From: Pyrus communis
Lineage: Eukaryota; Streptophyta; Magnoliopsida; Rosales; Rosaceae
Assembly: GCF_963583255.1 (NCBI RefSeq)
Contig: NC_084804.1
Span: 24,114,061 to 24,178,060 of the forward strand
Direction: 5' to 3'
Length of the DNA stretch: 64,000 bases
Position 1 is the stretch's first letter, and the number at the start of each line of letters is the position of its first letter. A program made the translations under genes and the position numbers. The notes under the pieces are model-generated. The model made no database searches, was not told where the DNA came from, and saw nothing but the letters and a program-made list of their open reading frames with translations. Below, piece by piece: positions 1 through 49,027 of this stretch.

Positions 1-890
1 ACTGACTCAAAGATACAAAAATATGCTTAAAAACACTTAAACAAACTCAAAGACTCTTAACTAAACTTATATGACTCAAAACAAACTCAAAAGACTCAAA
101 ACAACACAAAACAACCAAATAGACTCAAACTGGACTCTAGGACTCAATTTGGACGAAAATAGAATTGGTTTTGACTCAAAATACTCAAAAACACACTTTA
201 GGACAGATTTGAAACAAGTAAGTAAAGGGGATTGGGTTTTGGACGAATTTAGGACAAAAATAAGTAACTAAAAGACTTAAATGCAATTTGGACGAATTTG
301 AGAAAAACAATGGATGATTAGATAGCTAGAGGATACTTTTCCACACATGATACATTCAAACACAAATTGATTTCTAGTTGCTCTTTCGATAAACCATGAA
401 CCTCAACACCCCAGATTAACCGTGACATCACTAATTAACCCTCAGATTTTCCTTTAGTTATTGGATTGGATGACATCATTCGACAACCCAAAACATTCTT
501 CAAAAGTCCCCTACATGACATCATAATAGAGATACAATCAAAGATCATTACGTTCTATGAAAATCATAAGTATTGACAAAGCACTTGTAACTATGACATC
601 ATGATACTCATGCTAGGAATTTACTTAACATGATTGTGAAAACAACCTTAACAACTTGTGAATATAAGTTTGTAATGATTATGTGAAACACCCTTATATT
701 CTAGCACCAAATTGATGCATGCAAACTAAGTGTGTACCCTTAATCAACAAATCAGAATAAGTTATCCATCAAACGGTTAAGTAAATTGCTCCACAATTTA
801 TGAAATCACAATTCGAATTAATCAATTCATATTGCAAGTATAATCATGGTTTCAAAGCTTCCCCTAGCTAAAACAAGTTTAGCTCCTCAT
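1..890 (-). mobile_element. Partial LTR of an outer Athila-like element, cut by the window edge
   Basis: Read on the minus strand, this stretch matches the U5-side half of the other LTRs: the GAATATAAG stem, the conserved AAGTAGT block and four TGATGTCA-type sites are all present. It resembles the solo LTR at 25580-27370 most closely. The LTR is entered at 891 by another minus-strand LTR end (TGATGTGATA), so it is the oldest layer at the left edge. No reading frame here is credible. Confidence 0.8.
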
Positions 891-6060: not shown

Positions 6061-6663
6061 ACCCTAGCATTCATTCATTCACTCCCCATTCAATTCATAT
6101 CTCATATTTCCATTCACAACACTTCACACAACACAAATACCATTCCATTGCCGTGAGTCCCACTTCATTTTCTGCATATTTTCTCTTCATTCTTCCATCT
6201 CCAACCACTCCCTACTCCATTCCACATACACCTAAAGCCCTTAAGCTCACCTTAGACTTTGTGCTACAACAACGAGGAAGAAAAGAGTGCTTAAACGTTC
6301 ATACAATTCAAGTTTGAGTTGTTGGAATGTTTAGGTGTTTCTTTGATTTCAAAGTTTAAATTTAATTCTCTTTGTTTTGTACGTATGAGAAGGGAAGAGA
6401 AGAGTGCCTAAACGTTCATACAATTCACGTTTGAGTTGTTGGAATGTTTAGGTGTTTCTTTGATTTCAAAGTTATGAGGAACTAAACCCCCTTTAGCTAG
6501 GGGGTGATTCGAAACTATGTTTATATTTGCATTTTGAATTGATTACGTTTGGTTGGAATTTCATAAGTTGTGGATTCAATTCGTTTAACTGTTTGATTGA
6601 TAACTTATTTATGTATGTTCATTGAGATTGCAAGCTTAATTTTCATGCATAAATATGACGCTA

Positions 6664-6705
6664 GAATATAAGTGAATTTCACCTAATCGTTATGAACTTA
6701 TATTC
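6664..6705 (+). repeat. Conserved LTR hairpin GAATATAAGT...ACTTATATTC
   Basis: Arms at 6664-6673 and 6696-6705 are perfectly complementary. Inside the loop lies a second small palindrome, GTGAATTTCAC (6672-6682). The same structure is found in nearly every LTR here, including diverged families, so it is probably selected as a DNA site or an RNA fold. Confidence 0.7.
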
Positions 6706-6764
6706 ACAAGTAGTAGAGGTTGCTTATAAACAATCGCGTTAAACGAATTCTTGGCATAAGTTTC

Positions 6765-6907
6765 ATGCGTATTCCATGGTAACGAATGCCTCGTCGATGT
6801 TTATGATTTCCGTTGAACTTAATGATCTTGGTTAAATGTCTCTATCATGCGTATTCCATAGTTAGGGACTTTGATTAAGAACAATTTGGTTGTAATGCGT
6901 ATTCCAT
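6765..6907 (+). promoter_or_regulatory. Three iterated inverted-repeat sites in the E1 5' LTR
   Basis: ATGCGTATTCCAT occurs at 6765-6777, 6847-6859 and 6895-6907, with start-to-start spacing of 82 and 48 bp. The outer ATG and CAT form an inverted repeat. In other LTR families the same positions hold a different core, shared among the sites of that LTR (see the findings). The binding partner is unknown. Confidence 0.6.
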
Positions 6908-7368
6908 TCAATCCAACGAATTTAAGGAAATCTGAAAGTTAATCTAAGCGGATCTAATTAACTTGGAGCATTGAGTTTCACAACTTATCGAAAGACCAAC
7001 TGAGAATCAATTTTGTTTGCAAGTGTAACATGTGTGGAGAAGAACCCCTTGGCTATTCCATCATCCATATTTTTATCACATTCATATTTACATTTTGCCT
7101 TTAATTATATTCTGTCTTTTTAATTTAATATCGTCCAACCACAATTCCTCCCCCCGTATTTGTTTAATTTTTGTATCTTTAAGCTTGTGGAGTCATAAAC
7201 AATTGCAAATTCGTCTAAATCAAGTTCTAGCTTCTATTTGAGTCAATTTGATTGTTTTAGACAATTTGAGTTTTTCAAAGCCATTCTGAGTCATAGTAGT
7301 CTTGTTAAGAGTATTTTAATTTAGTTTTTATGTTTTTAAGTCAATTTAGAAGGTTTTAGCAAGCCCTC

Positions 7369-12971: not shown

Positions 12972-15675
12972 TGATAGGAGCATATTCATGCGACTTAAAT
13001 GGCTTGTTCTCGTGCATTTACGTTATGTTTCTCTCGTTATTTTAGTCCTTTATGCTTCTTTTGTGTGTTTTCAGGTTCTAAGGGCCTAGGGAGCATGAAA
13101 GTGCATTTTGAGGCCATTTGGAGCATTTTTGGGCATGGATTGGATAGCTTATCCATGGAGCCAAGAGGATGGACGAATTTGAAGGCCTTGTATGCACTTG
13201 AAGACACAAAACAATGGCCCTAACCCAATCACATAACACCTTGCCATGGGCTTAACACAAACACCATTCCTTGCCATGCAAGGAGGAGCAATTTGGGTCC
13301 ATTTCATGTACTTAAACTCTAGCCCAATCCACAATCACATTATGCCATACAAACCAACCTATTTTAGGCCCATTCTATGTACTTAAACCCTAGCCCTTTA
13401 AACTAGTTCATTTATCACTTATCAAACCATTCACTTATCACTCACCACATATCATTCACTTATCACTTAACATATCATTCATTTATTTCACTTCCATACT
13501 CCTCTTAATTCCACATGCATTCTCACACATGCACATCATTCACTCACATTTCCACCATTCATTCTTTATTCCTTTCCAAACATCTCACATGCATTTCCAC
13601 CTTCCTACTTCATCATTTCCACCACTCATTCTTCATTATTTCCTAACCCTACATGCATTATTTATTGCATCTACACATGCACATTCACACACACTTCACA
13701 CAAACAACATTCACATGCAAACACAAGCTTTAACCAACAAACAAAACAGCCAACACATGCACCAAAACACCTTTGTCGTGGCCTTCACTCCCCCTTGCAT
13801 TTTCAGCCATTCCACTTCATCATTACACCACCTTCTCCATCTTTAATCACATGCACCACCAATTCAACACATGCACTTGTTCCTCCATTAAATCAACCAC
13901 ATTCATCACCAAAGAACCTTTGTGCCGTGAGTTCCATTGCATTTCCAGCATCCTCACATGCATTCCCTTCACATTCACCCACATGCACATTCAATCATTC
14001 ACACATCCACCACTCATTCTTCATCATTTCAACCACCTACATGCATTAATTATTAAACTCTTCATCATTGCATCCAGAAAATGAGCAAGAAAGCTTCCCA
14101 AACACATGCAAATCCATCCATGCCGTGGGTTCCCTTTGCTCCCCTTGTGCAATTCCAGTTTTCACATGTATCCTAGCTGTTTTTCCATCATTCCTCCACA
14201 CAAATGCTTAAACAAACAGCCATATGTTCCCTCCACTACCCCTATAAATACCCTAGCATTCATTCATTCACTCCCCATTCAATTCATATCTCATATTTCC
14301 ATTCACAACACTTCACACAACACAAATACCATTCCATTGCCGTGAGTCCCACTTCATTTTCTGCATATTTTCTCTTCATTCTTCCATCTCCAACCACTCC
14401 CTACTCCATTCCACATACACCTAAAGCCCTTAAGCTCACCTTAGACTTTGTGCTACAACAACGAGGAAGAAAAGAGTGCTTAAACGTTCATACAATTCAA
14501 GTTTGAGTTGTTGGAATGTTTAGGTGTTTCTTTGATTTCAAAGTTTAAATTTAATTCTCTTTGTTTTGTACGTATGAGAAGGGAAGAGAAGAGTGCCTAA
14601 ACGTTCATACAATTCACGTTTGAGTTGTTGGAATGTTTAGGTGTTTCTTTGATTTCAAAGTTATGAGGAACTAAACCCCCTTTAGCTAGGGGGTGATTCG
14701 AAACTATGTTTATATTTGCATTTTGAATTGATTACGTTTGGTTGGAATTTCATAAGTTGTGGATTCAATTCGTTTAACTGTTTGATTGATAACTTATTTA
14801 TGTATGTTCATTGAGATTGCAAGCTTAATTTTCATGCATAAATATGACGCTAGAATATAAGTGAATTTCACCTAATCGTTATGAACTTATATTCACAAGT
14901 AGTAGAGGTTGCTTATAAACAATCGCGTTAAACGAATTCTTGGCATAAGTTTCATGCGTATTCCATGGTAACGAATGCCTCGTCGATGTTTATGATTTCC
15001 GTTGAACTTAATGATCTTGGTTAAATGTCTCTATCATGCGTATTCCATAGTTAGGGACTTTGATTAAGAACAATTTGGTTGTAATGCGTATTCCATTCAA
15101 TCCAACGAATTTAAGGAAATCTGAAAGTTAATCTAAGCGGATCTAATTAACTTGGAGCATTGAGTTTCACAACTTATCGAAAGACCAACTGAGAATCAAT
15201 TTTGTTTGCAAGTGTAACATGTGTGGAGAAGAACCCCTTGGCTATTCCATCATCCATATTTTTATCACATTCATATTTACATTTTGCCTTTAATTATATT
15301 CTGTCTTTTTAATTTAATATCGTCCAACCACAATTCCTCCCCCCCTATTTTGTTAAGTCTTAATCATTCGTATTTGTTTAATTTTTGTATCTTTAAGCTT
15401 GTGGAGTCATAAACAATTGCAAATTCGTCTAAATCAAGTTCTAGCTTCTATTTGAGTCAATTTGATTGTTTTAGACAATTTGAGTTTTTCAAAGCCATTC
15501 TGAGTCATAGTAGTCTTGTTAAGAGTATTTTAATTTAGTTTTTATGTTTTTAAGTCAATTTAGAAGGTTTTAGCAAGCCCTCCTAATCCCCGGTCTAGAA
15601 CGATCCCTCACTTATCCATTCTACTACAATTGTCAAACGAGGGTTTAATTTGAGTGTCAAGTAAATCTCGCATCA
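12972..15675 (+). repeat. 3' LTR of E1 (2704 bp)
   Basis: It has the same ends as the 5' LTR. Apart from a 25-bp segment present only here (near 15345-15370) few differences are visible, for example at 13775 and 14122. TATAAAT is at 14243-14249. The TSD GTGTT follows. Confidence 0.96.
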
Positions 15676-16522: not shown

Positions 16523-18781
16523 TGATAGAAGCTTATTTAGGCGACTTACTTTGCTTATTCTCGTGCATTTACGTTGTGTTTCTTTAGTTATTTTAGTCCT
16601 TTATTCTTCTTTTGTGTGTTTTCAGGATAATAAGACGTGTTTGACGAAAGGATGCATTGTGGAGTGTTTTGGAGCACTATTGGGCTAAGGATGGATAGCT
16701 TATACTTGGAGCCCAAGTGTTGGATGAAATTGAAGGCCTTGTATGCACTTGAAGACACAAAACAATGGCCCTAACCCAATCACATAACACCTTGCCATGG
16801 GCTTAACACAAACACCATTCCTTGCCATGCAAGGAGGAGCAATTTGGGTCCATTTCATGTACTTAAACTCTAGCCCAATCCACATTCACTTCAAAGCCAT
16901 GCATAACCTTTCAACACCCTTTAATCATCCCCCTTTAAGTTATGATTTTATTTCCTAACCCTACATGCATTATTTATTGCATCTTCACATGCATTCACAC
17001 ACACTTTACACATTCAAACACTAGCCAAACCGTGAGCTCCCATTCCTTTATGCCATTTTCAGATTTTCACCCACTAACCTAGTCATCAACACATGCATTT
17101 CCACCTTTCATCCACAATGATTCATGATTCATTCACTTTGCATCCTTTAATTCAATCACATACTTTCCCATTGTATAATACATCCACATGCATCTTTAAC
17201 CAATAAACATTACAACCACATGCACCCTTTTCTCCACATTCCAAACATTGCCGTGTATCCCCTTCATCAATTCCAGCATCTTCACATGTCTTCTAGCTTT
17301 CCCTTTCATTTCCACCACTCATTCTTCATCATTTCAGCCACCTACATGCATTAATTATTAAACTCTTCATCATTGCATTCAGAAAATGAGCAAGAAAGCT
17401 TCTCAATGCCGTGTATCCCCTTCACCATTTCAGCACATTCCAACACCTTCACATGCAATTCCAGTTTTCACATGTTTTCCTAACTGATTTTCCATCATTA
17501 ATTAGCCACTTGCATCTTAAACAAACAGCCATATGTTCCCTCCACTACTCCTATAAATACCCTTGCATTCATTCATTCAACATCATCTCATTTCATACAC
17601 AACACACCACAAACACTTCCATTCCTTCTCTTTGCCGTGAGTCCCCTTAGAATCCAAAACCATCTTTCCATTTCCACCACTTCCCAACCCTCCAAACCAC
17701 TCCTCTACCATTTCCATAATCCCCCAACCCTCACCTTAGACCTTGTGCTACAATAACGAGGAAGATAAGAGGGCCTAAACGTTCATACAATTCAAGTTTG
17801 AGTTGTTGGAATGTTTAGGTGTTTCTTTAATTTCAAAGTTATGAGGAAATAAACCCCCCTTTAGCTAGGGGGTGATTCGAAACTATGTTTATATTTGCAA
17901 TATGAATTGATTAACTTTCGTTGGAATTTCATAAGTTGTGGATTCAATTCGTTTAACTGTTTGATTGATAACTTATTTATGTATGTTCATTGAGATTGCA
18001 AGCTTAATTTTCATGCATGAATATGACGCTAGAATATAAGTGAGTTTCACCTAAACGTTACGAACTTATATTCACAAGTAGTGGAGGTTGCTCATAAACA
18101 ATCGCGTTAAACGAATTCTTGGCATAAGTTTCATGCGTATTCCATAGTAACGAATGCCTCGTCGATGTTTATGATTTCCGTTGAACTTAATGATCTTTGT
18201 TGAATGTCTCTATCATGCGTATTCCATAGTTAGGGACTTTGATTAAGAATAATTTGGTTGTAATGCGTATTCCATTCAATCCAACGAATCTAGGGAAATC
18301 TGAAAGTTAATTTAAGCGAACCTAATTAACTTGGAGCATTGAGTTTCATAATTTATCGAAAGACCAACTGAGAATCAATCTTGTATGCAAGTGTAACATG
18401 TATGGAGATGAACCCCTTAGCTAGCATTCATCCATAAACTTCATATTTACATTCTGTCTAGTTTATTAACTTGTTTCGTTATTTCAATTTTCGTAAAAAC
18501 CTCAATCCCCCTTTTGCTTTAATGTTCATTTTAGTTAGAATTCAATTTAGTTTGTGTTTTTAAAGCATTTTGAGTTTTTGGTTTGTCTTAGTGTTTTAAA
18601 TTTTAATTTTGCATTCTTTGAGTCTAGTTTAGTGTTTTAAACTTTATTTTACGTTTTTGAGTCAGTTTCCAAGAGATTTGCAATCCCTCCTAATCCCCGG
18701 TCCAGAACGATCCCTACTTGAACTTATACTACAAATCGTCAAAAAGAGGGTTTAATTTGTGTGCGCATAAATCACGCATCA
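16523..18781 (+). mobile_element. Solo LTR S2, 2259 bp, TSD GTAAG
   Basis: It starts TGATAGAAGC and ends CACGCATCA, with GTAAG at 16518-16522 and 18782-18786. TATAAAT is at 17552-17558. The U5 half matches E1 and F closely, including three ATGCGTATTCCAT sites. The U3 has many CATGCA motifs. No internal region remains. Confidence 0.95.
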
Positions 18782-19022: not shown

Positions 19023-20775
19023 TGATAGGAGCATATTTCTGCTACTTAGTTATGCTGTTTCCTTGCATTTAGTTACTTAATTACTATCTATTTTAGTCTT
19101 TTAAGCTATTTTCGTATGTTTTTAGGTCCTAATGGCAAAAGGAGCAAGAAAGTGCATTTTGAGGCTAATTGGAGCAGTTTTGTGCATGGATTGGATAGCT
19201 TAACTATGGAGCAATGTGGATGGACAAAATTGAAGTCAAGAGTTGCTAGGAAAGGCTAAAAATCTGGAGAAAGAAGTCCAAATGCAAAGAAGATAAGGAA
19301 AGAGCAAGAAATAAGGAACCTTATCCAAATTTCCTTATCTTATCCAAACCTTATCCAACTTTATCTTATCTTATCCTATCCTCATCTTTTCCTACCTTAA
19401 TTCCAACTTCAAAGAGGACTCCTTTTCACATTGAATCACCTAAATATCAAGTTCTAGAAGCCCTATTTTCGTGCATTAAGTTTATGCCACATGTAACCCT
19501 TCTAGAAGTTCTAGAATCTGCCACAAGGACCATTCCTTGTCTTCCTTGGAATCTAATTGAAAGTATCCTTGTTCTTTGGTGATTTGGAGTCCTAATTCCT
19601 CTCCTTTTCAGCCCGAATTCGTGCCTCCCCTTCACCCTATAAATACTTGATGCCACAACACTCAAAAACCACCACCCTCTACCACAAATTCACACCACAC
19701 CATCCACCACACCTCAAGAGCCTAAATTCACGCAAATCCCCATTGTTGGCAGCAAGGAAGGAAGGAGGAGCCACCTGGAGTGTTTCTAGGTGTATTCTAT
19801 CTTTGTTTTGCGAACATGTGGAACTAATTTCTTTTTAGTTAGAGGTGAATTCGAAGCCATGATTATATGTTTTATATGAATTGATTACATCCAGTTATTG
19901 TTTCTTAAGGCATGAATGTGATTTGCTTATCTAAGTTATTAAAACTTGTTTATGTATGTGGGTTAGGGGTCGACACTTAATTTGCATGCATGAATTTGAT
20001 GCTAGAGTATAAGGGGGGTTCACGTAAGAGTTATTCACTTATATTCACAAGTAGTGGAGGTTGCTAGTCACAATCGTGTTAAGTAAATCCTTGGTATGAG
20101 TCTCATGCATTTCATAGTGATGAATGCCTTGTCAATGCTTATGATTTTCACAAAACTTAATGGCTTTTGATATGTATCTTTATCATGCATTTCATATAGG
20201 GAGCTTGAGAAAGATAATTTGGTTTAGATGGATATTCCATCTAATTCAATGAAATAAGGAAAATATGATGGTTAATTGTGCGATGCAACTAACTTGGGGT
20301 CTTGTCATTCATAGTCTAAAGGAAAAATAACTAGAAATCTGTTCGTATGCATATATCATGTGTGGAGAAGGACCCTCTAACTAGCCTTTCACCCATTTAT
20401 TTCACTTAAATTCGTTTTTCCAAAGTATTTTCTACAAAGTTTTTGTTTTTAGTTTTAAATTCGTCAAAAACAATCCCCCTTTCATTTAGTCTTGTTATTT
20501 GAGTCAAAATCTGTTTTCTTTGAGTCTTTTGAGTCAAGTTAAGGTTTATTTTCGTCCAAAACACTTGTTAGGTCTAAAATTGAGTCTTTTTAAGTGTTTG
20601 TTGCTGTTTTGAGTGTTTTAAGTTAGTTTAGAGTCTATAGAGTCTATTTTAGTGTTTTTTTTGAGTCTTAATTGTGTTGATTAGCATCCCTTCTAATCCC
20701 CGACCTAAAACGATCCCTACTTTCATATACTACAATCATAGGGTTTTAATTTGAGTGTTAGAATATTTCACATCA
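19023..20775 (+). mobile_element. Solo LTR S3, 1753 bp (different LTR family)
   Basis: It starts TGATAGGAGC and ends TTTCACATCA. The flanks are AGGAT (19018-19022) and ATGAT (20776-20780), a TSD with one mismatch. U3 differs from E1/F: it has three TTCTAGAA sites (19452, 19500, 19509) and a CTTATC-rich tract (19319-19384), then TATAAAT at 19638-19644. U5 sites are ATGCATTTCAT (20105, 20185) and ATGGATATTCCAT (20228). Confidence 0.9.
19452..19516 (+). promoter_or_regulatory. Cluster of three TTCTAGAA motifs upstream of the S3 TATA box
   Basis: TTCTAGAA at 19452-19459, 19500-19507 and 19509-19516 fits the TTCnnGAA core of heat-shock elements. It lies 120-190 bp before TATAAAT. Heat response is inference. 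The motif is also a simple palindrome that could occur by chance. Confidence 0.4.
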
Positions 20776-21946: not shown

Positions 21947-22952
21947 TGATGTGAAAATTATGTTGACACACAAATTAAACCTTATTTGTGACAATTGTAG
22001 TATATATGCAAGTAGGGATCGTTCTAACCAGGGATTAACTAGGGATGCTAATCTACTCTAAACTGACTTAAAAACACAAAATTAAACTTTAAAACACTTA
22101 CCTAGACCTATATGACTCAAAACAACTTAAAAAGACTCCAAACAGCCCAAAACACTCAAATAGACTCAAACTAGACTCTAAAGGGTGATTTGGACGAAAT
22201 TTAACTAACTTAGACTCAAAACACTAATTTGGACAGATTCAAACACTTTTCTAACTAATCTAACACACTTAATAAAATGGGGAATTGATTTGGACGAAAT
22301 TAATTAAAATGGACAGATTGTAAATTAAACAGATTAGGCACTAAACTAGGTGAATTGAATGGGAAAAAGGTTAGTTAGGGGATTCTTCTCCACACATGCA
22401 CATATGTAACATAAATTGATTTCCAGATTTTATCCCTTTTAAACCATGAATGACAATGCCCCAAATTAATTGTGACAGGCACAAATTAACTTTCAGATTT
22501 TCCTAGTTTCATTGCATTGGATGGAATATGCATCGACAATCAAATTATTCTTATCAAATTCCCTACATGAACTGCATAATAGAGATAAAATCAAAGATCA
22601 TTAAGCTTTTTGAAAACCCTAAGCATTGACTAGGCATACGTAACTATGAATTGCATGATACTCTTGCCTAGAATTTACTTAATACAATCATGACTAGTGA
22701 TTTCCACTACTTGTGAATATAAGGTCCTAACGATTAGGTGAAATTTCCTTATATCCTAGCATCAAATTCATGTATGAAAACTAAGTATGCATCCTTAATC
22801 AACACACACGAACAAGTTCTCAATAAATCAATTAAGTAAATCACATCCACAATTCAAGAAACAAAATCTGGAGGAAATCAATTCATATAAAACATATGCC
22901 CATGGTTTCGAATTCACCCCTAACTAAGAAAAACTTAGTTACACATGTTCAT

Positions 22953-25394
22953 TGATGTGAAAATTAACTTGAGACACAAATTAAACCCTATTTGTGACAA
23001 TTGTAGTAGATATGTAAGTAGGGATCGTTCTAGACCGGGGATTAACTAGGGATGCTAATCTATGTAAATAAGACTCAAAAACACTAAACTAGACTCAATG
23101 GACTCAAAACTAACTTTAGACACTTAAAACAGCAACCAATACTCAAAAAGACTCACTTTTAGACTCAATAAAGGTTTTGGACGAAAATAGTACTTGACTC
23201 AAAAGACTCAAGGAAAACAAGTTTTGACTCAAATAAGAAGAGTAACATGGGGATTGTTTTTGACGAATTTTAGACTCAAAACAAAAACTTTGTAGAAAAC
23301 ACTTTTGAAAAACGAATTTAAGTAAAGTAAATGGGTGGAAGGCTAGTTAGAGGGTCCTTCTCCACACATGATATATGCATACGAACCAATGTCCAGTTAT
23401 TACTCCGTTAGACTATGAATGACAACGCCCCAAATTAATTGCATCGCACAACTAACGCTCAAGTTTTCCTTATTTCATTGAATTGAATGAAAACGCATTA
23501 CAACCAAATTATCTTTTTCAAGTTCTTTATATGAGATGCATAACAAAGATACATATCAAAAGTCATTAAGCTTTGTGAAAACTATAAGCGTTGACAAGGC
23601 ACTCATCACTATGAAACGCATGAGATTCATACCAAGGATTTACTTAACGTGATTGTGACTAGCAACCTCCACTACTTGTGAATATAAGTGAATAACAATT
23701 ATGTGAAACCCTCCTATACTCTAGCATCAAGTTTATGCATGCAACTTAAGTGTCCCACATACATAAACCAGTTTTAACAACTTAGATAAGCAAATGACAT
23801 TCATGTCTTAAGAAATAATAACCGGACGTAATTAATTCATATAAAACATATAATCATGGCTTCAAATTCTCCTCTAACTAAAAAGAAGTTAGTTCCTCAT
23901 GTTCGCAAAACAAAGATAATTAAATTTAAACATTGAACTAAGACTAAGGATAGAAAGAACCAAGAAAAACGCTCCACACTTCAATGGCATGCACGGCACT
24001 CCCTTGGATGGCAGATTGCACAAGTCCTCCTCTCCTTGCTTCCTTGCTTGCGGCACTAGGGTGTTGTAGAATGGATTGTGGTGTTTGATGGATGAAAGTA
24101 TGAATGAATGAATGTGTGAGTGGATGAATGAATGGTGCGGCATAGGGCTGTTTATATAGGCTATTAGGCACACTTAGTGAAGGAGAAGGATTGCACAATC
24201 CCATTGAAAAAGGGTTAATTCAAGGCAGAAACCAAATGGGAAATGGATTAGGTAATGCACGGCTAAGATTTAGGGAATTCTAGAAGGTTTGGTGCGGCAT
24301 GTTTATAGGGATGAGATAAGGTGTTCTAGAAGGAGTGTTTAGGGCAGATTCCTAAACCTAAAGGGACGAGAACATATGATATAAGTGTAGGAGAAGGATT
24401 GCAATTCCTAAACCTACAAGGAATGGTGTTCATGCGGCATTTTAAATGGATAAGGCTTCTAGAAACTGAAATAGGTGTTTATTTATGTAATTAATCCCCT
24501 CTAATTAGCTAGGGTTAATGTAGTATCCCACATCGCCCGTGAGGGCGTGGTCTTTGGGCCTTATATATCCATGCCCAGAGCTTTAACTTCAAGGAGGCCT
24601 TTTGGGGCTATGGCCTGCAAGAACAAAACCGTGCGGTAGCTGGGTGGCTGCGACATAGTCCAGGCCCAGAATGCCAAAGTGGACAATATCCGAGAGGTTG
24701 GAGTCTGGGATGTGACAATTTGGTATCAGAGCCAGACTCACGGTCGTGGTGTGCCGACGAGGACGTCGGGCTCCCTAAGGGGGGTGGATTGTAGTATCCC
24801 ACATCGCCCGTGAGGGCGTGGTCTTTGGGCCTTATATATCCATGCCCAGAGCTTTAACTTCAAGGAGGCCTTTTGGGGCTATGGCCTGCAAGAACAAAAC
24901 CGTGCGGTAGCTGGGTGGCTGCGACATAGTCCAGGCCCAGAATGCCAAAGCGGACAATATCCGAGAGGTTGGAGTCTGGGATGTGACAGTTAAGTCCTAA
25001 CCTGATTTGGATAGGATAGAATAGGATAATGTTAGAGTTAGGAAAGGATAATGTTGGTTAGGATAAGATAAGATAAGGTTGGATAAGGTTGGATAAGGTT
25101 CCTTGTTTCTTGCTTCTTCCTTATCTTCATTGCATTAGGACTTCTTCCACCAGATTTGTAGCCTTTCCTAGCCCTTCTTGACTTCAATTTCGTCCATCCT
25201 CTTTGCTCCATGGTTAAGCTATCCAATCCATGCCCAAAAATGCTCCAAATAGCCTCAAAATGCACTTTCTTGCTCCTTTTGCCATTAGGACCTAAAAACA
25301 TACGAAAATAACTTAAAAGACTGAAATAAATAGTAATTAACTCCATAAATGCAAGGAAACAACATAACTAAGTAGCATAAATATGCTCCTATCA
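22953..25394 (-). mobile_element. Solo LTR on the minus strand, TSD TTCAT, carrying a TRIM
   Basis: TTCAT at 22948-22952 and 25395-25399 is an exact duplication. The LTR (about 1970 bp without the TRIM) belongs near family S3: it has TTCTAGAA sites around 24268, 24313 and 24458 and a GATAAG-rich tract (25050-25105). U5 sites on plus are ATGAAAACGCAT (23487), ATGAGATGCAT (23531) and ATGAAACGCAT (23611). Confidence 0.93.
24519..24988 (+). mobile_element. TRIM element, 470 bp, TSD GTTAA
   Basis: Two 199-bp LTRs (24519-24717 and 24790-24988, TGTAGTATCC ... GATGTGACA) differ at one seen base. Between them are 72 bp with a primer-binding site TGGTATCAGAGC (24721-24732, initiator tRNA-Met) and a purine tract AAGGGGGGTGGA before the second LTR. 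GTTAA is duplicated at 24514-24518 and 24989-24993. There is no coding capacity, so it is mobilised by another element's enzymes. I do not assign it to a named TRIM family. Confidence 0.95.
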
Positions 25395-25579: not shown

Positions 25580-27370
25580 TGATACGATCATATTTAGGCG
25601 ACGTAGTTAGCTTGTTTTCGTACATTTATGTTGTTAGTTCATAGTTACTTTAGTAGTTTAAGCTATTTTCGTGTGTTTTTAGGTTCATATGTCTAAGGAA
25701 GCAAAAAGGTGCATTTTGGAGCATTTTGGAGCAAAATTGGGCTTGGAATGGATAGCATATGCTTGGAGCAAAAGGAATGGACGAAATTGAAGACTTAAAG
25801 ATGTTAGGATTCCTAATCAAAGTAGGATTCCTAATCAAAGAAGGATTCCTAATCAAAGAAGGATTCCTACTTGAAGTAGGAAAGTTAAGCCAAGGTTTCC
25901 AATTTTTGTTTGACCTTTCCTAATCCTAAATATCCCTAAGTTCCAGCAACTTTGAAGGTATCTTATGCATTTTAGGACACAAACCAAAGATTCCTTGCAC
26001 TATCCTAGTCTATGCCGCACCTTTCTTACCCTTTTCTTCCAAAATCTGCCACATATCTTCTTTCCCCTTTATTCTAGTCAATGCTGCAACTTTCCTTCCC
26101 TTTTCCATTGGGATTCTGATTTGTTACACTTTTTCCTTGAGGATTTGGACCTAAAAACCTTCCCAAATTAATTACTTATTGCCTTAACCTTTCTCCCTCT
26201 ATATATACATAATATGCCGCAACAAAGAAGGAGAAAGAAGAGAGGAGAAGCCTTGGACGTTTTGGCCATTCAAGCTTGGATTGTTGGAGCGTTTCTAGGT
26301 GTATTCAATCTTTGTTTTCAATGTTTAATTTATATTCTCTTTGTTTTGTTGTAAACATGAGGAGCTAAACTTGTTTTAGCTAGGGGAGGCTTTGAAACCA
26401 TGATTATATTTGCAATATGAATTGATTAATTTCAGTTATGATTTCATAAATTGTGAATGCAATTTACTAAACCGTTTGATGGATAACTTATTCTTGTTTG
26501 TTGATTAAGGGTGCACACTTAGTTTGCATGCATGAATTTGGGGCTAGAATATAAGGGTGTTTCACATAATCGTTACAAACTTATATTCACAAGTAGTTAA
26601 AGTTGTTTTCACAATCATGTTAAGTAAATTCCTAGCATGAGTATCATGATGTCATAGTTACAAGTGCTTTGTCAATACTTATGATTTTCATAGAACGTAA
26701 TGATCTTTAATTGTATCTCTATTATGATGTCATGTAGGGGACTTTTGAAGAATGCTTTGGGTTGTCGTATGATGTCATCCAATCCAATAACTTAAGGAAA
26801 ATCTAAGGGTTAATTAGTGATGTCACGGTTAATCTAGGGTGTTGAGGTTCATGGTTTATCCAAAAGCAACTGGAAATCAATTTGTATGCAAGTGTGTCAT
26901 GTGTGGAGAAGGACCCTCTACCTAGCTAATCACCCATCCATATTCCCCAAATTCGTTCTTAACTTTGTCTAGTTTAGTTTCTGTTTTGTTTTAATTCAAA
27001 TTCGTCAAAACAAAAACCCCCCTTTGTTTTAAGTGTCAATTAGGTTAGAATCTGAGCTATTGTGTGTTTTTAAGTGTTTTGAGTCAAAACTAATTCAATT
27101 TTCGTCCAAAGTAAGTCTTAGAGTCTAGTTTGAGTCTTTTTGATTGTTTTGTGTTGTTTTGAGTCTTTTGAGTTTATTTTGAGTCATATAGGTTTAGTTA
27201 AGAGTCTTTGAGTTTGTTTAAGAGTTTTAAGCAGATTTTTGTATTTGTGAGTCAGTTTTCATTAGATTAGCAATCCCTCCTAATCCCCGGCCTAGAACGA
27301 TCCCTACTTATATCTATATTACAATTGTCAAAAAGAGGGTTTAATTTGAGTGCTATTATTTATCACATCA
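25580..27370 (+). mobile_element. Solo LTR D, 1791 bp, TSD GAATT
   Basis: It starts TGATACGATC and ends TATCACATCA, with GAATT at 25575-25579 and 27371-27375. U3 contains an 18-bp tandem repeat (GGATTCCTAATCAAAGAA type, 25806-25872) and a TATATATA box at 26200-26207. Four TGATGTCA sites lie in the U5 half. Confidence 0.94.
26646..26825 (+). promoter_or_regulatory. Four TGATGTCA sites in solo LTR D
   Basis: ATGATGTCAT occurs at 26646-26655, 26724-26733 and 26769-26778, and GTGATGTCAC (core 26818-26825) is the fourth. These are the positions that hold ATGCGTATTCCAT in E1/F. The core resembles bZIP-type sites (TGACGTCA), but that link is only a suggestion. Confidence 0.6.
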
Positions 27371-28885: not shown

Positions 28886-30964
28886 TAACCCTCTCGTTGT
28901 CAAATTGTAGTAAGGATGCAAGTAGGGATCGTTCTAGACCGGGGATTAGGAGGGCTTGCTAAAACCTCTAAACTGACTCAAAAACATAAAAACAAAGTTA
29001 AAAACGTTCACAAAGACTCAAAGGACTCAAAACAGGTTCAAAAGACTCAAAACTGCCTAAAAACACTAAATAGGCAGTTTCTGACCTTAAACACAATTTT
29101 GGACGAATTTAAGGTTATGGTTTGATTCAAAACACTTTAAAACACAAATTAAACAGATTCTAAACAATATAGAACAAGAAAGTAAAGGGGGGTTTTGATT
29201 TGACAAAAATTGAAATAACAAAACAAAGTATAGAACTAGGCAGATTGTAAAACGAATTTTGAAAACAAGATGATGGATGGATTAGTTAGAGGTCCATTCT
29301 CCACACATGACACATTTATATATGAATCGATTTTCCAATTGCTTTTCATTAACTATGATGCTCAACACCCCAAGTTAGCCGTGGACAGCACTTTTCTAAC
29401 TTTCAAGTTTTCCTTAAGTTATTGAATTGGATGGGAATGCGCATACAACAACTCAAAACATTCTCTAAAAGTCCCTTACGTGAAAAGCACAATAAAGGTA
29501 CAATCAAGGATCATTAAGTTTAATGAAAACTATAAGTATTGACGAGGCAATTATTACTATGAAAAGCATGAAACTCTTGCCAAGAATTCAATTAACGCGG
29601 TTGTGACTAGCAACCTTCACTACTCATGTTTATAAACTTGTGACGATTAGGTGAAACTCGTTTATAAACTAGCATCGAGTTTATGCATGAAGACTAAGTA
29701 TGCATCCCTAATCAACATACAAAAACAAGTTTTTAATAAACAGATAATTGAATTGCTATCACAACTTAACAAATCACAATTGGAAGAAATCAATTCATAT
29801 TTCAAACATGTTCATGGCTTCAAACTTTCCCCTAACTAATTAGGGGTTTAGCCACTCATGATTACAGCAAACTTAGAAAGTAATAGCAAAGTAAACATTG
29901 AAAACAAGAACGAAGTACACCTAAAACACTCCAATCTGCAAGCATGAAACGTTTTAGGCCTCCTTCCTCTCCTAGTTGCTGCGGCACAAGGGGTTATGGT
30001 GAGTTTTGGGGATTATGGATGATGTAGAATGATGTGTTTAGGATAGGGATGGACGTAGGGGACGGCAAGGGTTGTTTTTGGGCAGAAAGTATGAAGAATG
30101 GTGAAGTATGGATGTGTTAGAGGGAGGGGATGAATTTCTGGCGTGAATGGTGAATGAATCAATCTTTTGTGGCTGCAACAAGGAGGTTTATTAATAGGAT
30201 TTCAGGAATTAAAACCCTAGGTTATGTAGGTAATCAGAAATTAAGTCAAAGACTCTAGAAAATAGGAAAGAATCCTCCCCCTTGCACGACAAGGAAGAGG
30301 AAGAGTCCAAGGAAGTGCACGGCAAGGGTTTTCAGAAATAGGTAAGTGTTTTAATTCCCTAAATCAATTCTAAGAATCAGGAATTAAGTTAAATCCCTTT
30401 AGAATAGGTAATTGAAATCAGGAATTAGGGGAAAAAGGCTAAGTCTTGCGGCACAAGGGAGGAAAAGAAAGGGAAAGTGCAGAACTTGCAGATTTTTGGA
30501 GAAAAGGAATGTATAGGTTCGGCTAAGGCTTTTAAGAAAGGGATTGTGACATAATCTTGCAGATTTTAGGAGAGAAGAGGAAGGTATGGTGCGGCACATG
30601 TCTAGGGCTTCTAGAACATGTGATTTAGGCAACCACATTATATGGAAACTTGCATAATTGGAAACCTTTCAAGAATAGAAACTCCCCATAATGGAAACTA
30701 GTTTCCAATTCTTGATTCCTCCTTCTTCCTTCGATTCTAGGCTCACTTGGTCTTCAATTTCGTCCAATGCTTTGGCTCCAAGCATAAGCTATCCATCCTT
30801 AGCCCAAAAGTGCTCCAAAAGGCTCCAAAATGCACTTCTTTGCTCCTTTAGCCCTTAGAATCTGAAAACATACGAAAATGGCTTAAAAGACTTAAAGAAC
30901 TAAGAAATAACAACGTAAATGCACAAGAACAAGCTAACTAAGTCGCCTAAATATGCTCCTATCA
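28886..30964 (-). mobile_element. Minus-strand LTR shared by host A and host A2, end truncated
   Basis: It starts (minus) at 30964 with TGATAGGAGC, directly after the polypurine region of A2, so it is A2's 3' LTR. Its last ~40 bp are missing: the CAAATTGTAGTA block runs straight into host A gag at about 28885. U5 sites on plus are GTGAAAAGCAC (29480) and ATGAAAAGCAT (29559). Confidence 0.8.
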
Positions 30965-33640: not shown

Positions 33641-35797
33641 TGATGTGTAAATTATGTTGACACACAAATTAAACCCTATTTGTGACAATTGTAGTAATGA
33701 TGTAAGTAGGGATCGTTCTAACCGGGGATTAACTAGGGGTGCTAATCTAATTTGAATTGACTTAAAAACACAAAAACTAAACTTAAAGACTCTTAACAAG
33801 ACTACTATGACTCAAAACAGATTTGAAACACTCAAAACTGCCTAAAACAATCAAATTGACTCAAACAGAAACTAGAACTTGATTTGGACGAATTTGAAAG
33901 TGTTTATGACTCCAAATGCTTACAAACACAAAATAAAACAGATTTGAATGACTAAGACTCAACAAAATATGGGGGGATTGTGGTTGGACGAATTTAAACT
34001 AAATGGGCAGATTGTAAAGAAAACAGATTGTAAGACAAAATTGTGATGAATCAATGGATGATGGAATAGCTAAGGGGTTCTTCTCCACACATGAAATATA
34101 TGCAACGTAAATCAATTTCCAGTTATCACTTCAATAAGTTATGAACCTCGACACTCCAAGTTAATTAGGTCCGCTTAAATTAACCTTCAGATTTCCCTAG
34201 AATCATTGAATTGGATGAATATGCATCGCAAACAAATTATTCCTAACAAATTCTCTATATGAACAGCATGATAAAGACATAAGTTAGAATCATTACATTC
34301 TTTGGAAATCATAAGCATCGACAAGGCATTTGTAACTATGAAAAGCATGATACTCTTGCCAGGAATCTACTTAACATGATCGCGAGTAGGGACCTTCACT
34401 ACTTGTGAATATAAATGCATAACGATTAGGTGAAACAAACTTATATCCTAGCACCAAATTCAAGCATGCAAATTAAGCGTGCACTCTTAATCAACATACA
34501 AGAATAAGTTCTAAATCAAACGGTTAAGCAAATTGTATTCACAACTTATGCAACGATAACTGGAAGTAATCAACTTAATTCACATATATAATCATGGTTT
34601 CGAATACACCCTTAGCCAAAACGAATTTAGCCAATCATTCTCAAAGAAAAACAAAGATTACATGAATTAAACATTGAAATTTAAGATAGAATACACCTAA
34701 AATTGTTCAACAACTCAGAATGAAGAGCCAAACAATTGTGTGAAACTGTCTCCTTTCCTTTGCTTGCGGCAGATTGGATGATGATGGTTTCTGGGCTGTT
34801 TTGATGATGTAGAATGGATTTTGGGTGGTGTAGAGGCACGGCAAGGGGTGTAGGTTGAGTGTGGATGGGTGTTTAATGGTTGGAAGGTGGTGGAGAACTC
34901 GGCAAAGAGGTGGAAGAAGGTGGAGCGGCTGCTTGTATTTTCTGGGCGCTAGAATGGTGTTTTGGGGTGTTTTTCTGCCCTAGGGTGTTTTTGGACGAAT
35001 TTCTGTGATGAATGATGAATGGCTGCGTAGGTTATGTGTTGGGGGGTGCGGCACACTAATGGGTATATTTATATAGCATGGCCGAAACCCTAGCAAACAG
35101 ATTTAGGGTTAACCTAGCTGATACAAGTGTTTTTGGGCCCCTAAGTTGCGGCATGGGTTTGGGAATTAAGTCCTAGCCCAATTGGTTTCAGATATGGACT
35201 TACACAATCCAAATCCAAGAGAAAAAGGGCCAATTAAAATCAGAATCCAATTAGAAATAGGTTAAGAATTTTCGTCCAAAATTGGGCCTTCTAGAAACTA
35301 AGTGTCTTATGGCTGATTTTGGGTATTCTAGAAGGCATAAAAGAGGGAAAGGTGTGGCACCCTTTTAGGGTCAGATAGGGCCTCTAGAAATTAGGTTTTT
35401 AGGTCCACTTGTAGCTAGGATTAAGGTGGAACAAGATTAGGTTAGGATAAGATAGGATAAGGTTTGGATAAGATAAGGTTGGATAAGGTTTTGGATAATG
35501 TTTCCTCTTTTCTTGCACTTTCCTTATCTTCTTTGTCATGAACTTTCCTTTTCTGATTTGTAGCATGTTTCTAACCTCTTTTGACTCCAAATTCGTCCAT
35601 CCACCTTGCTCCATATACAAGCTATCCATAATAAGCCCAAAACTGCTCTAAAAGGCTCCAAAATGCATCCTTTTGCCAAAATACGTCTTATGAACCTGAA
35701 AACACACAAAAGAGGCTCAAAGAACTAAAATAACTAAGAACTAATAACATAAATGCACGTAAACAAGCAACTAAGTCGCATAAATATGCTCCTATCA
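33641..35797 (-). repeat. 3' LTR of element E
   Basis: It reads TGATAGGAGC to ...TTTACACATCA on the minus strand. U3 has CTCTAGAA/TTCTAGAA motifs (35290, 35327, 35381) and a GATAAG-rich tract (35440-35510). U5 sites are variants of ATGCTTTTCAT. Confidence 0.95.
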
Positions 35798-43373: not shown

Positions 43374-45530
43374 TGATGTGTAAATTATGTTGACACACAA
43401 ATTAAACCCTATTTGTGACAATTGTAGTAATGATGTAAGTAGGGATCGTTCTAACCGGGGATTAACTAGGGGTGCTAATCTAATTTGAATTGACTTAAAA
43501 ACACAAAAACTAAACTTAAAGACTCTTAACAAGACTACTATGACTCAAAACAGATTTGAAACACTCAAAACTGCCTAAAACAATCAAATTGACTCAAACA
43601 GAAACTAGAACTTGATTTGGACGAATTTGAAAGTGTTTATGACTCCAAATGCTTACAAACACAAAATAAAACAGATTTGAATGACTAAGACTCAACAAAA
43701 TATGGGGGGATTGTGGTTGGACGAATTTAAACTAAATGGGCAGATTGTAAAGAAAACAGATTGTAAGACAAAATTGTGATGAATCAATGGATGATGGAAT
43801 AGCTAAGGGGTTCTTCTCCACACATGAAATATATGCAACGTAAATCAATTTCCAGTTATCACTTCAATAAGTTATGAACCTCGACACTCCAAGTTAATTA
43901 GGTCCGCTTAAATTAACCTTCAGATTTCCCTAGAATCATTGAATTGGATGAATATGCATCGCAAACAAATTATTCCTAACAAATTCTCTATATGAACAGC
44001 ATGATAAAGACATAAGTTAGAATCATTACGTTCTTTGGAAATCATAAGCATCGACAAGGCATTTGTAACTATGAAAAGCATGATACTCTTGCCAGGAATC
44101 TACTTAACATGATCGCGAGTAGGGACCTTCACTACTTGTGAATATAAATGCATAACGATTAGGTGAAACAAACTTATATCCTAGCACCAAATTCAAGCAT
44201 GCAAATTAAGCGTGCACTCTTAATCAACATACAAGAATAAGTTCTAAATCAAACGGTTAAGCAAATTGTATTCACAACTTATGCAACGATAACTGGAAGT
44301 AATCAACTTAATTCACATATATAATCATGGTTTCGAATACACCCTTAGCCAAAACGAATTTAGCCAATCATTCTCAAAGCAAAACAAAGATTACATGAAT
44401 TAAACATTGAAATTTAAGATAGAATACACCTAAAATTGTTCAACAACTCAGAATGAAGAGCCAAACAATTGTGTGAAACTGTCTCCTTTCCTTTGCTTGC
44501 GGCAGATTGGATGATGATGGTTTCTGGGCTGTTTTGATGATGTAGAATGGATTTTGGGTGGTGTAGAGGCACGGCAAGGGGTGTAGGTTGAGTGTGGATG
44601 GGTGTTTAATGGTTGGAAGGTGGTGGAGAACTCGGCAAAGAGGTGGAAGAAGGTGGAGCGGCTGCTTGTATTTTCTGGGCGCTAGAATGGTGTTTTGGGG
44701 TGTTTTTCTGCCCTAGGGTGTTTTTGGACGAATTTCTGTGATGAATGATGAATGGCTGCGTAGGTTATGTGTTGGGGGGTGCGGCACACTAATGGGTATA
44801 TTTATATAGCATGGCCGAAACCCTAGCAAACAGATTTAGGGTTAACCTAGCTGATACAAGTGTTTTTGGGCCCCTAAGTTGCGGCATGGGTTTGGGAATT
44901 AAGTCCTAGCCCAATTGGTTTCAGATATGGACTTACACAATCCAAATCCAAGAGAAAAAGGGCCAATTAAAATCAGAATCCAATTAGAAATAGGTTAAGA
45001 ATTTTCGTCCAAAATTGGGCCTTCTAGAAACTAAGTGTCTTATGGCTGATTTTGGGTATTCTAGAAGGCATAAAAGAGGGAAAGGTGTGGCACCCTTTTA
45101 GGGTCAGATAGGGCCTCTAGAAATTAGGTTTTTAGGTCCACTTGTAGCTAGGATTAAGGTGGAACAAGATTAGGTTAGGACAAGATAGGATAAGGTTTGG
45201 ATAAGATAAGGTTGGATAAGGTTTTGGATAATGTTTCCTCTTTTCTTGCACTTTCCTTATCTTCTTTGTCATGAACTTTCCTTTTCTGATTTGTAGCATG
45301 TTTCTAACCTCTTTTGACTCCAAATTCGTCCATCCACCTTGCTCCATATACAAGCTATCCATAATAAGCCCAAAACTGCTCTAAAAGGCTCCAAAATGCA
45401 TCATTTTGCCAAAATACGTCTTATGAACCTGAAAACACACAAAAGAGGTTTAAAGAACTAAAATAACTAAGAACTAATAACATAAATGCACGAAAACAAG
45501 CAACTAAGTCGCATAAATATGCTCCTATCA
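43374..45530 (-). repeat. 5' LTR of element E
   Basis: It is the same length as the 3' LTR (2157 bp) and nearly identical. It ends TTTACACATCA beside the primer-binding site. A duplicated target GGCTT follows at 45531. Confidence 0.96.
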
Positions 45531-46816: not shown

Positions 46817-49027
46817 TGATAGGAGCATATTCATGCGACTTAAATGGCTTGTTCTCGTGCATTTACGTTATGTTTCTCTCGTTATTTTAGTCCTTTATGC
46901 TTCTTTTGTGTGTTTTTAGGTTCTAAGGGCCTAGGGAGCAAGAAAGTGCATTTTGAGGCCATTTGGAGCATTTTTGGGCATGGATTGGATAGCTTATCCA
47001 TGGAGCCAAGAGGATGGACGAATTTGAAGGCCTTGTATGCACTTGAAGACACAAAACAATGGCCCTAACCCAATTACATTCACCTTGCCTTGGGCTTAAC
47101 ACAAACACCATTCCTTGCCATGCAAGGGGGAGCAATTTGGGTCCATTTCATGTACTTAAACTCTAGCCCAATCCACAATCACTTCAAAGCCATGCAAAAC
47201 CTTTCAACACCCTTTAATCTTCCCCCTTTAAGTTATGATTTTATTTCCCAACCCTACATGCATTATTTATTAGTATCTTTACAAGACATTATCATTGCAT
47301 AACATTCCATTTCCACCTCTTTCCCACCTAATTCACATGCCTTCATTCATTCTTTATTCCACTTACACTCATCATCACACACCTTAGCAATCAACACATG
47401 TAATCACATGCATCACAACCACAAAGAACCATCCCCAAAACACTTTGCCGTGAGTTCCCACTCCCATTTCCAGCTTTTCATAACTTTTCCTAGTTGTTTT
47501 ATTACATACATTCCCCCTTCATTATTCCAAACACATGCACCCATAATCATTCATCCCCTCCTAGCTGCAATATTCCCTCTTTTGTTCCCCCATTTCACCT
47601 ATAAATAAGCATCCAACACTCCTCAAAATTCACTTACTCTTCCATAGACATTTTCAGTTACAAACACCAAGCAACAAACCCATTGCATTGCCGTGAGTCC
47701 CACTTCATTTTCTGCATATTTTCTCTTCATTCTTCCATCTCCAACCACTCCCTACTCCATTCCACATACACCTAAAGCCCTTAAGCTCACCTTAGACCTT
47801 GTGCTACAACAACGAGGAAGAAAAGAGTGCTTAAACGTTCATACAATTCAAGTTTGAGTTGTTGGAATGTTTAGGTGTTTCTTTGATTTCAAAGTTTAAA
47901 TTTAATTCTCTTTGTTTTGTACGTATGAGAAGGGAAGAGAAGAGTGCCTAAACGTTCATACAATTCACGTTTGAGTTGTTGGAATGTTTAGGTATTTCTT
48001 TGATTTCAAAGTTATGAGGAACTAAACCCCCTTTAGCTAGGGGGTGATTCGAAACTATGTTTATATTTGCAATTTGAATTGATTACGTTTGGTTGGAATT
48101 TCATAAGTTGTGGATTAAATTCGTTTAACTGTTTGATTGATAACTTATTTATGTATGTTCATTGAGATTGCAAGCTTAATTTTCATGCATAAATATGACG
48201 CTAAAATATAAGTGAATTTCACCTAATCGCTATGAACTTATATTCACAAGTAGTGGAGGTTGCTTATAAACAATCGCGTTAAACGAATTCTTGGCATAAG
48301 TTTCATGTGTATTCCATAGTAACGATTGCCTCGTCGATGTTTATGATTTCCGTTGAACTTAATGATCTTTGTTGAATGTCTCTATCATGCGTATTCCATA
48401 GTTAGGGACTTTGATTAAGAATAATTTGGTTGTAATGCGTATTCCATTCAATCCAACGAATTTAGGGAAATCTGAAAGTTAATCTAAGCGGATCTAATTA
48501 ACTTGGAGCATTGAGTTTCACAACTTATCGAAAGACCAACTGAGAATCAATTTTGTTTTGCAAGTGTAACATGTGTGGAGAAGAACCCCTTGGCTATTCC
48601 ATCATCCATATTTTTATCACATTCATATTTACATTTTGCCTTTAATTATATTCTGTCTTTTTAATTTAATATCGTCCAAACACAATTCCCCCCCCCTATT
48701 TTGTTAAGTCTTAATCATTCGTATTTGTTTTATTTTTGTATCTTTAAGCTTTTGGAGTCATAAACAATTGCAAATTCGTCTAAATCAAGTTCTAGCTTCT
48801 ATTTGAGTCAATTTGATTGTTTTAGACAATTTGAGTTTTTCAAAGCCTTTCTGAGTCATAGTAGTCTTGTTAAGAGTATTTTAATTTAGTTTTTATGTTT
48901 TTAAGTCAATTTAGAAGGTTTTAGCAAGCCCTCCTAATCCCCGGTCTAGAACGATCCCTCACTTATCCATTCTACTACAATTGTCAAACGAGGGTTTAAT
49001 TTGAGTGTCAAGTAAAATCTCGCATCA
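46817..49027 (+). repeat. 5' LTR of element F (2211 bp)
   Basis: It starts TGATAGGAGC and ends CTCGCATCA. U3 is CATGCA-rich but about 470 bp shorter than in E1. The duplicated 117-bp block is present (around 47825-48010). The first iterated site has a C-to-T change (ATGTGTATTCCAT near 48305) not seen in the 3' LTR. Confidence 0.95.
47600..47606 (+). promoter_or_regulatory. TATA box of the F 5' LTR
   Basis: TATAAAT follows the CATGCA-rich U3. The same box is at 59716-59722 in the 3' LTR. Confidence 0.75.

Follow-up and report, generated by a model that had tools for sequence, protein, structure and literature searches.

The window analyzed here, the whole stretch of 64,000 nucleotides (nt) from Pyrus communis (NC_084804.1, positions 24,114,061 to 24,178,060), is a nest of long terminal repeat (LTR) retrotransposons whose LTRs carry short iterated motifs of the form ATG...CAT. 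These motif sites are the tips of hairpins in an RNA domain of about 560 nt that recurs in the LTRs of Athila-like elements. The domain has a conserved fold belonging to the sense strand, a hairpin loop whose palindrome changes between families yet stays palindromic, and a group of further hairpin loops that are correlated within an LTR.

The setting is clearest in element E, which holds the best-kept gag-pol of the window. On 49158-54671, Pfam matches occur in the order PF03732, PF00078, PF17917/PF17919, PF17921 and PF00665 (Retrotrans_gag, RVT_1, RNase H, Integrase_H2C2 and rve), as in Ty3/gypsy elements, and the gag and pol open reading frames (ORFs) are long and open. The name Athila is presumed from the look of the proteins and of the primer binding site, which we take to be a tRNA-Asp site typical of Athila. 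The landmarks of this element are as follows.

46817..49027 (+), 5' LTR of element E, its ends placed from the TG..CA termini
47600, TATA motif TATAAATA
49033 onward, tRNA-Asp-like primer binding site TGGCGCCGTTGCCGGGG
49158, ATG of gag

In 12 of 17 copies, the domain is preceded by a TATA motif at a distance of 171-451 nt. Because it lies downstream of this motif, the domain probably forms part of the genomic RNA's 5' leader, as judged from the sequence. In element E this leader is long and contains several AUGs ahead of gag.

A preliminary description of this DNA proposed that each LTR has three, often four, inverted-repeat sites with a family-specific core. All 12 of the motif sequences that it listed are present in the window, and the sites at 6765, 6847 and 6895, at 2516, 2598 and 2646, and from 26646 onward lie exactly where it placed them; one copy, at 48305, reads TGTATTC rather than CGTATTC. 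In family D, ATGATGTCAT occurs at 26646, 26724 and 26769 and GTGATGTCAC at 26817 (ending at 26826). The corresponding sites are at 20105, 20185 and 20228 in S3, at 61842, 61920 and 61966 in G, at 23611, 23531 and 23487 in the minus-strand LTR, and at 29559 and 29480 in the LTR at 28886-30964. The suggestion that both arms of a site changed together in the last of these is borne out, since the second hairpin of the copy there (HP2 of copy J) reads GTG..CAC. ATGCGTATTCCAT is present 16 times on the plus strand, always within aligned LTR stretches, and 0 times on the minus strand, compared with a chance expectation of about 0.002 at equal base frequencies. Shorter cores are less specific: ATGCAATCAT also occurs outside the aligned sites at 11669 and 57622 (+) and 32349 (-), and ATGCATTTCAT at 1015 (-). 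Site cores are 4 to 8 nt long across the window. The three iterated sites thus stand, but a fourth that shares the core is present only in D. In H and J the fourth site is RTG..CAY with a different core, and its place reads AGCGGATC, AGCGGACC or AGCGAACC in E, G and K and GTGCGATGC in S3 and I.

The inverted repeat extends, imperfectly, beyond each motif into the flanking bases, and its two sides change in step; the pairs of the first hairpin, for example, read GUU:AAC, GUA:UAC, GUC:GAU or AUC:GAU, depending on the family. Seventeen LTR stretches were aligned, and the whole-domain alignment (A3) comprises 14 rows. Over about 399 inner columns of 14 copies, RNAalifold scores the sense consensus at -47.25 kcal/mol with 30 compensatory pairs and the antisense consensus at -22.6. 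Tree simulations without structure give -9.1±3.8 and at most 18 compensatory pairs (119 of 200 planned), and column shuffles give -13.8±3.4 and at most 15 (115 of 200 planned). When the alignment is extended outward, a closing stem of about 60 pairs appears around a multi-branched interior. Across all of this domain, about 560 nt in 13 rows, the sense consensus reaches -112.6 kcal/mol with 57 compensatory pairs, compared with -39.9 and 23 for the antisense strand, and 100 column shuffles of the same rows average -19.2±4.2 (minimum -29.3; no more than 21 compensatory pairs). When 14 rows are scored against a fixed structure of 165 pairs, 95.6% of the 2285 cells are paired and 51 of the 165 pairs show two-sided change; in 500 shuffles not one of the five measures is equaled, and sliding the partners yields 8-14. 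Single domains of copies F and J also fold well alone (z -9.23 and -6.87, with none of 100 shuffles as good). A conserved fold of the domain is strongly supported. The domain copies in the window, together with the hairpins HP1-HP4 and H5 of the D and E LTRs, are listed here.

323..870 (-), copy Dr, palindrome off by one base
2297..2806 (+), copy S1, H5 deleted
6494..7055 (+), copy F, folds alone
14677..15250 (+), stretch with copy E2, nearly the same as F and not a row of A3
17862..18423 (+), copy Fb, from the alignment
19836..20383 (+), copy S3, palindrome GTCGAC at 19969-19974
22372..22926 (-), copy H, palindrome ATGCAT at 22787-22792
23344..23880 (-), copy I, part of the H5 loop missing
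26377..26924 (+), RNA domain in the D LTR, from A3 and the consensus structure
26490..26537 (+), H5 in D, resembling a dimerization initiation site (DIS), with the palindrome GTGCAC in its loop (26511-26516)
26634..26668 (+), HP1 in D, loop ATGT, site 1 of the preliminary description at 26646-26655
26716..26740 (+), HP2 in D, loop ATGT, site 2 at 26724
26757..26782 (+), HP3 in D, loop ATGT, site 3 at 26769
26807..26835 (+), HP4 in D, loop ATGT within GTG..CAC, site 4 at 26817-26826
29283..29838 (-), copy J, palindrome ATGCAT at 29700-29705
34067..34618 (-), copy K1, palindrome GTGCAC at 34479-34484
43800..44351 (-), copy K2, palindrome GTGCAC at 44212-44217
48034..48596 (+), RNA domain in the E LTR, closing stem 48034-48114/48517-48596 and H4 48118-48127/48280-48289
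48147..48194 (+), H5 in E, DIS-like, loop palindrome TTGCAA at 48168-48173
48293-48330, 48379-48408, 48426-48451 and 48476-48504 (+), HP1, HP2, HP3 and HP4 in E, from the consensus structure
60144..60560 (+), partial domain copy, cut in HP3
61571..62123 (+), copy G1, lacks a palindrome at the fixed column but has GCGCGC two bases further along
62254..62615 (-), partial G-family copy, truncated within HP2
62870..63422 (+), copy G2, palindrome GTGCAC at 63004-63009

At the paired columns of alignment A1, the minority states include 88 G.U and 13 A.C. G.U is tolerated and A.C much less, so the sense strand seems to be constrained as RNA; since this count starts from a structure predicted on the sense sequence, comparing the two strands by energy is the more even-handed test. 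When the motif hairpins are folded alone, the closing three pairs form in 20 of 24 cases. The local signal in E fades past about 48590, and no further covarying helix of at least four pairs was found among the unpaired columns. Rfam 15 gives 0 matches to a ribozyme or other known RNA, either at the gathering score across the window or at E<=5 on 47950-48650. The loop of another hairpin, H7 (48199-48255 and its equivalents), reads TTCACNTAA and is nearly the same across families, unlike the HP loops; it could be a site for a shared factor.

The same domain occurs elsewhere in the genome. A covariance model of its 3' part (R1), built from seven rows of families E, G, S3, I and D, recovers the held-out families H, J and K (copies H and K2 among them) at 148-165 bits. 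Applied to 19 stretches of the same genome (188 kb), picked partly near J-family copies and partly at will, R1 detects 36 copies in 16 stretches. All 36 were added to the alignment along with 7 of the 38 matches of a second scan, from which 30 J-family matches (one per locus) and one fragment of 33.9 bits were omitted; L014_515 and L042_4892 among the 43 added rows are one copy counted twice. These rows fit the fixed structure in 5998 of 6602 cells (90.9%), and their paired cells include 967 G.U and 115 A.C. In thirteen of them, whose identity to the closest copy in the window is 75-83%, 88-96% of cells still fit, and five rearranged or cut rows show 59-74% pairing. In 14 diverged representatives (17 minus three rearranged ones with 59-71% pairing; six short rows were not considered), pairing is 93.6%, 64 of the 165 pairs show two-sided changes, and the energies are -96.1 for sense and -16.8 for antisense.

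The loop of hairpin H5 is eight bases long and contains a palindrome of six, read by family in the window as TTGCAA, GTGCAC, GTCGAC or ATGCAT and palindromic in 9 of 11 scored rows. Among 497 alignment positions in the window rows, this loop is the only one with at least two palindromes in at least five rows. In the wider set it is palindromic at the fixed column in 41 of 53 rows, with six versions (the next best position has two), and anywhere in the ten-base core in 47 of 53 rows, with eight: GTGCAC (17 rows), ATGCAT (9), TTGCAA (5), GTCGAC (5), GCGCGC (4), AGGCCT (4), GTGTACAC (2) and GTTAAC (1). GCGCGC is shifted by two bases, and GTGTACAC and GTTAAC each come from one copy, that of GTGTACAC being the one counted twice. 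Four of the six non-palindromic rows are rearranged and two are one base off. Within the J family the H5 loop is the same in all 31 rows (30 distinct copies, as L003 is the window's own). H5 therefore has a self-complementary hairpin loop kept by paired changes, as is expected of a DIS; loops that vary and stay self-complementary are the expected trace of two RNA copies pairing through them.

The loops of HP1 to HP3 form the loop code. In a test over all 40320 pairings of the 8 window families, treated as independent, loops within an LTR are more alike than expected (HP1-HP2, P=0.0003; HP1-HP3, P=0.0035; HP2-HP3, P=0.026), and the 7-nt arms beside them show no such excess (P=0.13 to 1.0). This comparison of cores with flanks is the one that the preliminary description had put forward for its claim of concerted, family-specific sites, and the claim holds in both the window and the wider sample. 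Leaving out one family at a time gives P of 0.0024 or less for HP1-HP2 and 0.028 or less for HP1-HP3. All three loops are present in 50 of the 57 rows of the wider set, in 21 distinct triples that collapse to 13 once near-identical ones are merged; 35, 1063 and 807 of 200000 permutations were as good for these 13, again with families treated as independent, and the arms gave P of 0.48-1.0. New codes fit the pattern, such as CGCTTT/CGCTTT/CGCTAATTC and CAAT/CATT/CAT (CAT also being present in HP4), and HP3 often retains a longer ...ATTC loop of its own. In G1, the arms of HP1 match Fb at 38 of 38 bases and the HP2 and HP3 stretches are nearer D or J, but the loops (CAAT, CAATT and CAAT) match one another and are the G family's own. 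The LTRs look mosaic, with blocks of the domain (A3 columns 1-585) that have different nearest families, for example in L040_7270, L037_4739 and L043_9347, and recombination between families seems to be frequent. The ATGT code occurs on at least two backbones and with four palindromes, and the CGTATTC code on at least two backbones.

The motifs are thus real but are best read as RNA rather than DNA sites. By analogy with retroviruses, the domain probably acts as a dimerization and packaging leader with a family-specific loop code that is read by one trans-acting factor; we infer transcription through the domain, RNA dimerization, and packaging as its purpose. In such a model, H5 would couple two genomic RNAs through its self-complementary loop, in the manner of a retroviral dimerization site. 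The sites, as the apical parts (RUG-loop-CAY) of three and sometimes four hairpins in the domain of an Athila-like Ty3/gypsy LTR, would display one loop or close variants of it repeatedly (on HP1-HP3, and on HP4 in some families) to a single RNA-binding factor. This display could allow the RNA of an element to be recognized among the many related families in the same nucleus. A single trans-acting reader is suggested because several loop copies change together and no complement in cis that is common to the families was found in the domain, U5 or leader stretches of 12 LTRs. The matches in cis that do occur are scattered ones with G.U in G, H, I, J and K and one exact match in J; the D sites match each other with G.U.

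Several observations weigh against this model. Its leader position rests on the TATA motif, which 5 of the 17 domain copies lack. All of the LTRs come from one genome, with many copies of the same families. Structure adds 36-52 bits to the scores of the held-out families, but their E-values are no better than those from a model without structure (7.4e-30 and 1.3e-33 for H, 5.6e-30 and 9.6e-31 for J, and 1.6e-33 and 4.3e-34 for K, with structure given first), the two models differing in information per position, so that this comparison does not separate structure from sequence; two cut copies score higher without structure. Taken by itself, the inner stretch does not outdo its shuffles in folding; single domains folded without constraint recover 37-94% of the consensus pairs, and the closing pairs of 4 of the 24 motif hairpins fail to form. 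HP3 is the weakest helix, with 90.5% of cells paired, no two-sided change and a mean pair probability of 0.34; its loop lengths vary, and the MAFFT alignment shifts there. The antisense strand is not without signal, since F has an antisense z of -3.11 and some antisense local windows beat shuffles, with z to -10 near 47980 (at energies of only -2 to -3) and about -4 at 48117-48237. Codes are mixed in L037_4739, L040_7270, L043_9347 and L033_4575, and among the 13 collapsed codes HP1 equals HP2 in 5 and HP3 in 3. The GCGCGC version of H5 lacks flanking purines. Finally, the nucleocapsid (NC) of Gag does not track the loop code in seven NC stretches, a small sample from mosaic elements: NC identity is 78% between E and L035, which share a code, and 91% between elements with different codes (L035 and L046; J and a CGCTTT element). 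Given this lack of correlation, the packaging role is argued from the palindrome, the likely leader position and analogy, and not from Gag, which is kept as a candidate reader only because the NC sample is small. In the same Gag set, the capsid (CA) stretches are 82-92% identical to family E (at 44055 (-) and 48333 in the window, and in L033, L035, L038, L043 and L046), the NC linker is more variable than CA, and the zinc knuckle is nearly fixed.

The preliminary description had favored DNA sites for one dimeric, family-specific protein, citing VANDAL transposons, in which family-specific motif arrays are DNA sites read by the transposon's VANC protein. The iterated ATG...CAT dyads and their correlation within an LTR would suit such a protein, but the dyads extend into longer helices with compensatory changes and belong to a fold of 165 pairs, 51 of them covarying; moreover, their spacer ranges from 4 to 8 nt, and both the fold energy and the G.U and A.C counts are strongly strand-specific, whereas a VANC-like array should be constrained equally on both DNA strands. 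The six protein pieces scanned with Pfam, beyond which no wider search was made, include neither a VANC-like protein nor any other DNA-binding candidate, and this explanation is very unlikely. The resemblance to VANDAL arrays is therefore one of family-specific motifs, present here as RNA hairpins. It is still less credible that the fold does not serve the element and is a by-product of inverted repeats feeding small-RNA silencing. PMC3276544 deals with an Athila small RNA, but silencing would lead one to expect long perfect duplexes rather than a multi-branched fold with bulges, a near-invariant H7 loop and a covarying palindrome.

The main rival to a dimerization and packaging leader, itself rather unlikely, is a nuclear-export or translation element that binds host proteins, comparable to the musD MTE, the IAP RTE, a caulimovirus leader or an internal ribosome entry site, with loops that drift under host pressure. 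The size and place of the domain resemble the structured caulimovirus leader of 482-608 nt described in PMC12786077, and the several AUGs of the long leader and the failure of NC to track the loops also point in this direction. Such an element leaves unexplained why a loop should stay palindromic through several versions, and why several loops should change jointly under a constant host factor. Loop identity might instead be mechanical, the outcome of template switching or gene conversion between hairpins in the absence of selection on it. The mosaic LTRs and the TCATG..CATAG flanks common to HP1 and HP2 in some families would agree with this, but HP3 shares little beyond ATG..CAT with HP1, the 7-nt arms are not homogenized in either sample, and the palindrome independently points to selection at the RNA level; a mechanical origin is accordingly improbable.

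If the domain is a dimerization and packaging leader, the self-pairing loop would set which RNA pairs with which, and the HP loops which factor takes an RNA up. Recombination that reshuffles the palindrome and the loop code between backbones would then let partner choice and recognition evolve as separate modules. It is conceivable, although less than an even prospect, that co-resident families carry an RNA identity code in this form, in which a shared 560-nt scaffold bears one swappable self-pairing loop and another swappable loop shown three or four times, the modules evolving separately. The literature apparently says little on how a plant Ty3/gypsy element selects its RNA, pairs it and packages it when many related families are present. 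A single genome here supplies natural leader variants with pairing and recognition loops in several combinations, and genome pairing, packaging specificity and cross-family parasitism thereby become directly testable in vitro. The domain is also a large covarying RNA from an abundant class of plant repeats that is apparently undescribed; among the open-access papers listed by literature searches, no title or abstract opening reports a structured RNA domain or dimerization site in Athila LTRs.

The closest parallel is the DIS (SL1) of HIV-1, a six-base self-complementary hairpin loop between purines in the 5' leader, which occurs as GUGCAC and GCGCGC. H5 has the same form, apparently in the same position, and both of these versions are among its own. 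It differs in that the host element is a plant Ty3/gypsy retrotransposon, in that several palindromes are present in one genome, in that H5 is one arm of a 560-nt domain, and in that the GCGCGC rows lack the purines. The HIV-1 core encapsidation signal is likewise described as a structured leader, with several Gag NC sites (PMC7395439), whereas the domain has three or four hairpins with a common family-specific loop that NC does not track. Dimers of yeast Ty3 RNA formed in vitro depend on PAL6, a palindrome close to the 5' end (PMC11381356); at nt 391-396, it comes last among six palindromes described in one element, three of them within the GAG ORF. Both palindromes belong to Ty3-type elements, and that of H5, apparently also near the 5' end, is in an LTR hairpin that covaries across families. 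Among plant LTR retrotransposons, BARE is said to have conserved dimerization and packaging signals (PMC3735527), but it belongs to Ty1/copia (PMC12786077), and neither a large covarying domain nor a loop code appears in the passages of PMC3735527 on it. Sireviruses have repeated palindromic motifs that are presented as dyads in DNA, placed ahead of the TATA box and built in most cases on a CGG-CCG core (PMC2829016). These are also iterated dyads in plant LTRs; the sites described here, unlike them, are downstream of the TATA motif where one is present, have ATG..CAT ends, are best read at the RNA level, and have a family-specific core. The caulimovirus leader, described for TREX-dependent export (PMC12786077), is likewise structured, comparable in length to the domain and carried by a reverse-transcribing element of plants.

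Searches for relatives found none confirmed in viral contigs (with gag and reverse transcriptase peptides and two LTR patterns), none in a genome-contig collection with one LTR pattern, and none in plasmids with one LTR piece. The C-terminal half of pol did match two genome contigs, L001 (NZ_QPKJ02000021.1) and L002 (NZ_JABGCL010000066.1). These assemblies, of Solirubrobacter and Geminicoccus respectively, share one gag-pol element of plant type, with 99.6% identity across 9,025 bases, which is most likely contamination; its internal region has no match to R1, a model of the 3' part of the domain only.

Other features of the LTRs and elements were seen in passing. Short upstream ORFs were considered as an account of the sites, two of which in E read ATG CGT ATT CCA TAG, and were rejected, as 11-nt cores in other families break the frame. 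An antisense ORF of 210-225 amino acids lies 3' of pol at 55215-55847 (-) and 9215-9892 (-); it has no Pfam match and by eye has the look of a coiled coil, and the protein is nearly the same in the two elements. A tandem duplication of about 90 nt in the E LTR, at about 47812-47905 and 47928-48015 and likewise read by eye, immediately precedes the domain.

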